26,988 nucleotides of DNA from the IMG/VR virus record IMGVR_UViG_3300025435_000067, positions 1 through 26,988 of that record; one strand, 5' to 3'. Each line of letters starts with the position of its first letter. Position 1 is the first letter of the stretch. Position numbers and translations under genes: made by a program. The stretch comes from a virus. This document shows positions 744-23,904 of the stretch, piece by piece. Under the pieces are notes generated by a model that did not search any database, was not told the DNA's origin, and saw nothing but the letters and a program-made list of their open reading frames with translations.

Positions 744-1109
744 TTATGCCTGTCGTGTTAAGAAAGAAGGACGTATGCTCTTCGCACCAAAATACTTTTG
801 GACTAGACCAATTACTATCTGGTCATCATACTCCTTGCAAGAGAAAACGTCTAGATACATAGCATTTCCTCCCTTGAGATCATCTGGTACAAAGTGAGCA
901 CAGATGTTACTGGTCTCAATCAACTGTACTAGTGTATAGCCGGCTTTGTTTCCGCTACCGAAGTTAACAATTTGTGGTTCTCCAAAAGCCACCATATCGA
1001 TGTCTTTTACCAATTGCTTAGTGAAATTGTAGATTGTGGTATAGTCTTGGATAGCGTCGCTGTTACAGTCGGCGCAATCTAGTATAAGGTGATAACCCCA
1101 GTATGCCAT
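744..1109 (-). CDS. speD: S-adenosylmethionine decarboxylase-like protein (SpeD family)
   Basis: A 121-residue protein with the short bacterial AdoMet decarboxylase pattern: GYHLILDCADC near the N-terminus, an ETSNICAHFV segment (about 65-74) corresponding to ESHxxxH in SpeD, and LDVFSC with Cys91 corresponding to the catalytic Cys of DVFTC. True SpeD is a proenzyme cut at Glu-Ser to make a pyruvoyl cofactor. In my alignment that Ser falls at or near GYTL (Tyr58-Thr59), with no serine, so cleavage and decarboxylase activity are doubtful. Active SpeD would feed spermidine synthesis. The ATG has an AGGAG 10 bases upstream; an earlier ATG opens only an 11-codon frame. It is followed at once by clpP and preceded by a sigma70-type promoter with a dyad. 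Fold assignment is good, chemistry uncertain. Confidence 0.75.
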   Translation of the reverse strand: MAYWGYHLILDCADCNSDAIQDYTTIYNFTKQLVKDIDMVAFGEPQIVNFGSGNKAGYTLVQLIETSNICAHFVPDDLKGGNAMYLDVFSCKEYDDQIVIGLVQKYFGAKSIRPSFLTRQA

Positions 1110-2077: not shown

Positions 2078-2389
2078 AAAAGTGGGGGATTCTGTTTCCA
2101 CGCTCCCCCGGGCGCATTGAAATTAAGCTGCTAGAGCCATTTCATAAGTTGCAACGTTGTCGTTAGCAATTATTAGTTTTATTGCGTTAACCGAGCTTTC
2201 GCCGGACTGTCTACTTCAACCTTTATACGCCAGTCGATCCTGTTTATCGCCCATCAAAAACACATAGAACTATAATCCTACGGGGCACTCAGTTATATTG
2301 TTGCTACTACAACCTATGTGCTTTTGGTGGACGATTCGGGTACCGCCCCCGAGTCCTGATCGTTTTATTGCTTTGCTATCAACAACAGT
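2078..2389 (-). ncRNA. ssrA: tmRNA, circularly permuted two-piece form
   Basis: On the minus strand the acceptor piece comes first. It has a T-arm with TCGGG/CCCGA stem and 7-base loop (2352-2336), then acceptor strand ATCGTCC (2335-2329) and encoded A-CCA ending at 2325. A 72-base intervening segment (2324-2253) follows, whose ends pair (CACATAG with CTATGTG). The coding piece starts at 2252 with GGGCGAT, which pairs with ATCGTCC over 7 bp (one G-U), and holds the tmRNA signature GGATCGAC. The tag reading frame (2167-2123) encodes ANDNVATYEMALAA then TAA. An H-type pseudoknot can form after the tag (GGGGGA 2109-2104 with TCCCCC 2089-2084, crossed by CGC/GCG). The ANDN start, LAA end and permutation match alphaproteobacterial tmRNA. 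It would rescue stalled ribosomes and tag proteins for proteolysis. The ends of the transcript are approximate. Confidence 0.93.
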
Positions 2390-2393
2390 ACAT

Positions 2394-2424
2394 TATTTAT
2401 AACATCTGTTTATATGCTTGTCAA
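2394..2424 (-). promoter_or_regulatory. tmRNA promoter: consensus sigma70 site overlapping a late octamer
   Basis: TTGACA (2424-2419), a 17-base spacer and TATAAA (2401-2396) form a near-consensus sigma70 promoter starting two bases past the upstream stop codon. The -10 is also part of a perfect TATAAATA octamer (2401-2394), the T4 late promoter sequence, so the tmRNA could be made both early and late. Confidence 0.85.
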
Positions 2425-12093: not shown

Positions 12094-12101
12094 TATTTAG
12101 T
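12094..12101 (-). promoter_or_regulatory. ACTAAATA late-type octamer before the tail spike
   Basis: It lies 26 bases before the spike start codon and overlaps the stop of the upstream nuclease gene (AAC TAA ATA). Confidence 0.45.
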
Positions 12102-12774
12102 TGGTTAGATAGTATTGTTCTACCCTCTTCCACCATTCATTCTTCCAATGATCGTATTCATCCGGCCATAAGTCAAACTGTTGATATTGGAAATCTTGGC
12201 TGCACATAAAGATATGTCCTTCACGGATATCTGTGCCGTGTACTTCATTGTGTGCTTCAACATATGCTACTAGCTGTAGATAGTAATCTTCAACCCATTC
12301 CTTCTTCTTGGGCTTGTTAGTCTGCTTGTAATCCATTATGCAATGATTACCTTTATATACGCCAACTAGATCAGTAGTGCCTGCATATATCTTAGGAAAG
12401 AACAGATTTACTTCTTGTCCCCAAGCTTCTTCTAGATCAACTAAAGCTTTAGCCTGTATCTGTTCAGCCATTTTGCGGGCTTGTATAGAATAGGGATTTG
12501 TACCTGCGTCGGGCATAATCCCAGTTTCTATATAGACTTCAAGGAACTTGTGCATACGTGTTCCTCGCCCAGCAGCTTCGGTAGTTATCTCTTGTGCTTT
12601 TGCTTCACCAACACGCTTGCGCCATTCGATGAGATGCGTTTTGTCCTTAGTACGATCTAGGATCGTAGTAACACTGGCTACTGCATTACCGTCTGGACAC
12701 TCGTATAGCCTACGTCCTTCGACTGATTTCCGTTTTATAGAAGCGTAATCAAACTTCTTTTTGATAAATGTCAT
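12097..12774 (-). CDS. PD-(D/E)XK exonuclease, RecB/Cas4-like
   Basis: A 225-residue protein with the RecB-type nuclease core in order: His75 in GRGTRMHKFLEVYI, Glu121 in GQEVNLFFP, Asp135 in GTTDLVGVY, Asp148 and Lys150 in IMDYKQ, and the QxxxY motif Gln167-Tyr171 (LQLVAY). All expected metal-binding positions are present, so it is probably an active DNA exonuclease or endonuclease in phage replication, recombination or host DNA breakdown. It has no Cys cluster, so it is not a typical Cas4. Its start overlaps the lipoprotein stop. The family is firm, the exact reaction is not. Confidence 0.88.
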   Translation of the reverse strand: MTFIKKKFDYASIKRKSVEGRRLYECPDGNAVASVTTILDRTKDKTHLIEWRKRVGEAKAQEITTEAAGRGTRMHKFLEVYIETGIMPDAGTNPYSIQARKMAEQIQAKALVDLEEAWGQEVNLFFPKIYAGTTDLVGVYKGNHCIMDYKQTNKPKKKEWVEDYYLQLVAYVEAHNEVHGTDIREGHIFMCSQDFQYQQFDLWPDEYDHWKNEWWKRVEQYYLTN

Positions 12775-23273: not shown

Positions 23274-23345
23274 TGGCGCTCTGTATGGGAGTTGAACCCA
23301 TTCTTGCAGTTTTAGAATCTGCTAGCTCTCCGCGAGCAACAAAGC
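23274..23345 (-). tRNA. tRNA-like gene with anticodon CUA (amber suppressor candidate)
   Basis: A 72-base RNA with encoded CCA. The acceptor stem GCTTTGT pairs with ACAGAGC over 7 bp (one G-U). A perfect T-arm ATGGG/CCCAT has a normal TTCAACT loop. The anticodon stem GCAG/CTGC has an A-A mismatch next to a 7-base loop TTCTAAA, which places U33 and puts CUA at 34-36 with A37, a typical layout for a codon starting with U. CUA reads UAG. The D arm is short (GCTC/GAGC with a 5-base loop), and the variable loop is 4 bases. It begins 4 bases after the peroxiredoxin stop, and it may be processed from that transcript. Which amino acid it takes is unknown, and it could be inactive. Confidence 0.7.
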
Positions 23346-23349
23346 ATTA

Positions 23350-23904
23350 TTAAAGTGTAGCACCACCTAGGGGGCGATTGCAACCACAAAGTTCTCCAGT
23401 GCCGAGAGCATCTAATACACGTAGAGTCTCTTCTGGACTGCGGCCTACGTTTAGATCGTTTACCGTAACGTGCTGGATGACGTTATCGGGATCTACGATA
23501 AATGTAGCTCGCAAGCAAGCACCCGCATCCTGATGGAAGATACCAAGCTGTCCTGCTAGTCCTCGATCATCACGTAGTGTATCTGCAAACATCCAGCTGT
23601 TAGTCTTCTTTAGATCTTCGTGATTGTTACGCCACGCTAGCTTTACGTACTCGTTATCAGTATTACCGATCAGCAACTTAGCATTGCGATCTTCAAACTG
23701 TTCTACCAGTGCATCATACGCTACGATCTCAGTCGGACACACAAATGTGAAATCCTTAGGATAAAAAACGATAACCTTCCACCAACCTGCGAAACTGTTC
23801 TCGTCAATCATTTCAAAAGCACCCGGTGCTTCATCATCATTTAGTACACCTGGCCTTACACCAGTGACTACAAATGGGGTAACCTTATCGCCTACTGTCT
23901 TCAT
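23350..23904 (-). CDS. AhpC-type peroxiredoxin
   Basis: A 184-residue peroxiredoxin. It has the peroxidatic Cys56 in TFVCPTE with Thr53, and the catalytic Arg132 in CLRATFIVDP. C-terminal Cys173 and Cys175 in ELCGCN match the resolving CxC arrangement of mycobacterial-type AhpC. It would reduce hydrogen or organic peroxides in the host cytoplasm, with electrons from a thiol reductant. The phage glutaredoxin is a possible partner. All catalytic residues are present. It is translated with the upstream 66-residue gene (ATGA overlap), in a unit with tRNA-Ala, tRNA-Pro and the amber tRNA. Phage peroxiredoxins are rare in my experience. Confidence 0.92.
   Translation of the reverse strand: MKTVGDKVTPFVVTGVRPGVLNDDEAPGAFEMIDENSFAGWWKVIVFYPKDFTFVCPTEIVAYDALVEQFEDRNAKLLIGNTDNEYVKLAWRNNHEDLKKTNSWMFADTLRDDRGLAGQLGIFHQDAGACLRATFIVDPDNVIQHVTVNDLNVGRSPEETLRVLDALGTGELCGCNRPLGGATL

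Follow-up and report, generated by a model that had tools for sequence, protein, structure and literature searches.

A two-piece tmRNA has been described for phage Melnitz, and the same survey obtained 133 tmRNA structures from 402 of 18,146 phage genomes; of these structures 53 are two-piece forms, 50 of which come from marine or aquatic samples (PMC9004378). In the tmRNA database, 79 of the entries are from phages (PMC11915505). Contrary to the preliminary description of the DNA analyzed here, in which a two-piece form was regarded as less expected for a phage, such genes are published for Melnitz and others, and many more are present in IMG/VR. Permuted tmRNAs are common in that collection, where a single T-arm pattern gave at least 120 matches and ARAGORN calls permuted genes at many of the matching loci; they occur in phages of Rhodobacter, Ruegeria, Phaeobacter, Mesorhizobium, Erythrobacter, Sinorhizobium and cyanobacteria. 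Phage isolates carrying the alpha type include DSS3P8, vB_RpoS-V10, MD18, DSS3_MAL1, RcXuper, RcRudolph, RcSimone-Hastad, Cp1R7A-A1 and vB_EliS-L02, and several of these genomes have no tmRNA annotation at the locus. Permuted tmRNAs are likewise unannotated in Sinorhizobium phage Phosso (PV764938, 349596-350198) and cyanophage BUCT-ZZ01 (ON615601, 116952-117248). The gene studied here belongs to this already known kind, the phage two-piece tmRNA; no direct DNA relatives of it were found among phage isolates.

The tmRNA locus of the window

The window, by which we mean the whole stretch of DNA analyzed, is a complete IMG/VR virus record of 26,988 bases and represents a phage fragment, with genes for ribonucleotide reductase, an exonuclease, ClpP, a tail-lysozyme and a tail-spike. 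It contains a circularly permuted tmRNA gene of the alphaproteobacterial type at 2389-2079 on the minus strand (Table 1). The preliminary description had claimed a phage-encoded, permuted, alpha-type tmRNA with its own tag, and had proposed an Infernal search with the alpha_tmRNA model and a run of ARAGORN in permuted mode as checks. Both support the claim. The alpha_tmRNA model (RF01849) matches 2428-2081 (minus strand) with 124.6 bits (E 6.6e-34), and the tmRNA_permuted model (RF04321) matches 2386-2123 (minus strand) with 108.9 bits (E 1.1e-20), scores more than twice the curated cut-offs of 50 and 47 bits, respectively. ARAGORN agrees in calling a permuted tmRNA at 2421-2032 (minus strand), with the tag ANDNVATYEMALAA followed by a stop. 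The acceptor piece with its encoded CCA lies upstream and the coding piece downstream. The match to the alpha model is weak at the first lower helix of the cmscan alignment, and the region flanking the tag, where the model has pseudoknots, is aligned to the covariance model at the level of sequence.

Table 1. Coordinates of the tmRNA locus and the neighboring protease gene in the window
Feature	Position	Strand	Basis and remarks
ClpP-like protease, 195 aa	153..740	-	PF00574, E 2.2e-30; 1.4 kb downstream of the tmRNA, same strand
Coding piece	2079..2252	-	3' helix ending CCCCCACTTTT; 3' end approximate, from the RF01849 boundary at 2081
Tag coding sequence GCT...TAA, peptide ANDNVATYEMALAA	2123..2167	-	ARAGORN and coordinate check
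Acceptor 5' strand GGGCGAT	2252-2246	-	Start of the coding piece
Intervening segment, 72 nt	2253..2324	-	Ends form a 12-bp helix; no ORF; presumed to be removed on processing
Acceptor piece	2325..2389	-	RF01849 and RF04321 alignments; 5' end approximate
Acceptor 3' strand ATCGTCC	2335-2329	-	Followed by encoded ACCA, 2328-2325
T-arm, alpha-type loop GGCGGTA	2352-2336	-	Within the acceptor piece
Promoter-like element	2394..2424	-	TTGACA 2424-2419, N17 spacer, TATAAATA 2401-2394; sequence reading, script-checked

The span 2078-2389 given in the preliminary description is correct, and neither the minus strand nor the promoter-like element had been mentioned there. This element, TTGACA-N17-TATAAATA, is conserved in four related loci (L064, L125, L127 and L128), and in a fifth (L156) the extracted segment begins at GACA. 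The element fits a T4-type late promoter as well. A promoter scan of the window, which demands T at position 6, did not list the element at 2424-2394.

Stems, processing helix and tag

The acceptor stem that had been claimed, GGGCGAT with ATCGTCC, pairs at all seven positions in the window, includes G3-U70 and is followed by ACCA. G3-U70 is the alanine identity element. The window gene was aligned with five relatives (L064, L125, L127, L128 and L156), of which L064 is identical to it across the aligned region. The stem is GGGGACG/CGTCTCC in L127 and GGGGTCG/CGACTCC in L125, L128 and L156; both strands differ, and full pairing and G3-U70 are retained. The pair at the end of the T-stem also switches from U-A to C-G among the aligned relatives. 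The same pattern holds more widely, since in all 208 viral loci having an alpha T-arm and a coding piece the acceptor stem is paired 7/7 with G-U at position 3, in a search whose pattern left the acceptor 5' strand unconstrained. The seven stem variants in these loci comprise, besides GGGGGCG/CGCCTCC, the forms GGGCGAT/ATCGTCC (the window stem, 14 of the 208 loci), GGGGTCG/CGACTCC, GGGGACG/CGTCTCC, GGGGGTG/CACCTCC, GGGGCTG/CAGCTCC and GGGTGCG/CGCATCC. Judged from these alignments, pairing of the tmRNA stems is under selection.

Base pairing between the two ends of the intervening segment, which had been suggested to expose processing sites, is borne out at the level of structure. Its 12-bp helix is separated from the acceptor stem by ACCA/UGAU, and the acceptor-plus-spacer stretch folds more stably than shuffled sequences (-34.2 kcal/mol, shuffle mean -17.5, z -5.5). 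Across 111 distinct spacers, positions 2-11 of the ends are paired in 86-98% of cases, with many compensating pair types, and the helix leaves ACCA and UGAU facing each other where the cuts are expected. An Rfam search of the spacers for a riboswitch or other RNA family returned nothing beyond tmRNA, tRNA and weak matches below the cut-off.

The tag frame of the window begins with an alanine resume codon and ends in a hydrophobic Clp degron. The identical peptide is found in L064, L125, L127, L128 and contig G029, and it is unchanged in L125 and L127 although the flanking protein is only 65-67% identical. Its C-terminal end is -ALAA, as in ordinary SsrA tags, and the tag therefore bears no sign of a switched protease. 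Tags of about 27-29 residues (for example, ANDNALSNVTFVDFSAPVTAVNEDFALAA) were observed at other loci (L016, L028, L374, L386 and L395). The view that long tags such as those of L016 and L374 are ARAGORN errors was dropped; they are probably real, since several contigs of the clade carry long tags related to them.

Distribution, proposed function and the neighboring ClpP

Relatives of the window were sampled in IMG/VR by means of its exonuclease (12097-12774), so that selection by the tmRNA itself would be avoided; this gave 20 contigs of at least 40 kb in addition to contig G001. A permuted tmRNA above the cut-off is present in all 20 of them, and G001 is positive too, so the tmRNA looks like a core gene of this uncultured phage clade. 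The closest isolate relatives of the window exonuclease belong to jumbo phages (46%). A classification of the clade as T4-like by gp23 (PF07068) was not supported, with none of nine contigs (fragments of 65-128 kb) positive and the Melnitz and Phosso controls positive. No SmpB was detected in 40 phage records, mostly fragments, while the control genomes were positive; SmpB is therefore probably supplied by the host.

The identity of that host had been proposed to be alphaproteobacterial. The alpha-type tmRNA does suggest such a host; it is no proof of one because Melnitz, which carries an alpha-type tmRNA, infects OM43, now classed in the Gammaproteobacteria (PMC9004378). A scan of 84,980 species genomes of bacteria and archaea gave no match to the exact combination of T-arm and acceptor stem seen in the window. 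The window also encodes a tRNA with a CUA anticodon (amber-suppressor type; 23274-23345, minus strand), TAG being the stop codon of only 1 of the 38 genes listed, and a protein that, judged from its translation, is peroxiredoxin-like (23350-23904, minus strand).

The best explanation of the locus as a whole, and one that we hold with considerable confidence, is that the phage has a functional ssrA gene here and uses it for trans-translation. The gene structure, pairing, conservation and synteny are observed. How the RNA is transcribed, processed and charged, when it acts, its reliance on host SmpB and the protease involved are inferred with the help of established tmRNA biology. The tmRNA would be transcribed from its own promoter as a single precursor. 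The paired spacer ends, by extending the acceptor stem, would allow RNase P and 3'-processing enzymes to free the spacer, leaving two RNAs held together by the 7-bp acceptor stem and neighboring helices. Charged with alanine by virtue of G3-U70, this two-piece molecule would enter stalled ribosomes with host SmpB; the stalled protein would receive the ANDNVATYEMALAA tag and the ribosome would be released, so that translation capacity could be preserved during the cleavage of host and phage mRNAs. We think that such ribosome recycling during mRNA cutting in infection is the main benefit. The -ALAA end should direct the tagged product to Clp proteases, possibly including the phage ClpP.

If the tmRNA is indeed a core gene of the clade, ribosome rescue would be under the control of the phage itself and not left to the host. 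The same observation bears on the most improbable of the alternatives, by which the phage picked up a host ssrA gene accidentally, for instance through imprecise excision, and the gene has no selected role in it: although ssrA is a frequent integration site of phages and islands, we rejected this on conservation, since both stems are kept paired by compensatory changes, the tag is retained and the gene occurs in all 20 sampled clade contigs. In addition, its T-arm/acceptor combination was not found in the 84,980 species genomes.

An alternative that we regard as unlikely, but that survives better than the others, is a retagging device, in which the phage tmRNA competes with that of the host and the phage tag either is recognized by the phage ClpP or protects stalled proteins from host proteolysis, so that amino acids or host regulators are redirected. 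A ClpP-like protease had been noted near the tmRNA, and it is indeed encoded there, with an intact Ser, His and Asp triad that aligns with solved ClpPs in PDB alignments. In the window and in three further contigs (G002, G030 and G031), the gene for a ClpP of the window type follows the tmRNA at a distance of 1-1.8 kb and is read from the same strand; ClpP is found in 14 of the 20 clade contigs, and G030 and G031 have two each, one bacterial-like and one of the window type. Members of the ClpP family accompany tmRNAs of the alpha type (Phosso) and tmRNAs that score best as the beta type (G010 and BUCT-ZZ01). All of this favors retagging. Against it, the tag has the ordinary -ALAA end, 15 of 18 tmRNA-bearing phage contigs (fragments) show no ClpP, and the family occurs without a tmRNA in G049, G050 and G051 (also fragments). 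In eight other contigs (G032, G033, G036, G038, G039, G043, G046 and G047) a same-strand ClpP gene is found farther from the tmRNA, 10-18 kb downstream. Since the tmRNA is core in the clade with or without ClpP on the contig, the presence of ClpP is evidence of synteny and not proof of a partnership. An association of ClpP with tmRNA as such was not retained, the first tally being confounded by fragments and lineage. The syntenic ClpP nevertheless makes a phage-owned route of tagging and degradation testable.

Other genes were also observed near phage tmRNAs. An S-adenosylmethionine-decarboxylase-like protein (744-1109, minus strand; PHROG match) is encoded between the tmRNA and ClpP in the window, and a similar protein is found at the same place in G031. 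In vB_EliS-L02 (L287), the tmRNA is followed after about 0.5 kb by another protease-like gene, annotated 'proteasome subunit alpha/beta'.

Much less probable than retagging is a decoy, in which the phage RNA would bind host SmpB, alanyl-tRNA synthetase or ribosomes and dampen host trans-translation, in the manner of the tag-less tmRNA form of phage DS6A, whose expression in E. coli has been reported to inhibit the cell's own tmRNA (PMC11915505). In favor of a decoy, the phage RNA could reach high copy numbers late in infection; however, the full reading frame, the stop codon and the degron, all unchanged in relatives, would be superfluous for it. The clade offers tags, acceptor stems and spacers that vary naturally and with which the benefit of the gene to phages can be tested.

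ORFs in the spacers of related phages and comparison with known systems

The spacers of related phages frequently contain small ORFs. Distinct phage spacers of at least 100 nt, forming 35 clusters, were searched for an ATG within the first 33 nt and an ORF filling at least 75% of the spacer. Such an ORF is present in 18 of the 35 clusters, whereas dinucleotide shuffles predict 0.92, and in 15 it is accompanied by a Shine-Dalgarno sequence (0.07 expected). Loci with one small, Shine-Dalgarno-led spacer ORF include L018, L037, L112, L118, L076, L188, L205 and L235. The ORFs of L018 and L037 differ at 7 synonymous and 0 non-synonymous codons and encode DUF6356 (5e-12). In two relatives of the window gene, L125 (4255-4790) and L156 (5778-6307), the spacers measure 207 and 201 nt, respectively, and contain ORFs of 34 and 32 codons behind AGAGAGGG; these ORFs show 6 synonymous and 5 non-synonymous codon differences and in-frame length changes, and they are outside the 18 clusters because only half of the spacer is filled.

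Some spacer ORFs have recognizable relatives. A 63-codon spacer ORF of G041 is 50% identical to the spacer ORFs of L188 and L210. It is also 40% identical to gene 85 of Melnitz (L279, MZ577097), a gene that is likewise homologous to the L188/L210 ORFs and whose end is four bases before the start of the tmRNA in that phage. The Melnitz spacer contains a different ORF, of 54 codons behind GGAGAAG, which extends 42 nt into the coding piece and sits inside a feature annotated as tmRNA alone. In L398 (G006:C1:9000-11000), a 520-nt spacer contains an ORF for a 154-aa HNH homing endonuclease (phrog_655, 6.8e-14). For three small spacer ORFs, no protein relatives were found among phage isolates. The spacer ORFs of L005, L021, L046, L077, L080, L095 and L117, most of which terminate in ...MMGAK or similar, have a TAG stop that reaches 13 nt into the coding piece, and a cut at the RNase P site would therefore deprive them of their stop codon.

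On balance we favor the view that the phage tmRNA spacer is a gene slot, with a bifunctional precursor that would yield both the tmRNA and a small protein or homing endonuclease. In several phages, the spacer released by RNase P would itself be a nonstop mRNA, the kind of substrate on which the tmRNA from the same precursor acts, and processing would thus be coupled to peptide output. The window would be an allele lacking an ORF, and this reading therefore concerns the family and not the window. A structural RNA gene that is processed and harbors protein genes overlooked by annotation would be a new arrangement; no published report of ORFs in tmRNA spacers was found among the open-access papers searched.

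Among known systems, the tmRNAs of alphaproteobacteria are matched in the GGCGGUA T-loop, the permuted order and the ANDN-type tag, and the window passes both RF01849 and RF04321; it differs in the stem GGGCGAU/AUCGUCC, which together with its T-arm is absent from the species genomes scanned. Phosso is a large phage with an alpha-type permuted tmRNA and the isolate ClpP closest to that of the window (53.5%), but its spacer is 410 nt long and its tmRNA and ClpP are far apart. Melnitz (MZ577097) differs in its tag (ANDNYVPVDYALAA), in its acceptor stem and in a 142-nt spacer bearing the Shine-Dalgarno-led ORF, whereas the window has 72 nt and no ORF; the two share a phage-encoded, permuted, alpha-type tmRNA with a 7-bp acceptor stem containing G3-U and a tag ending in -ALAA.
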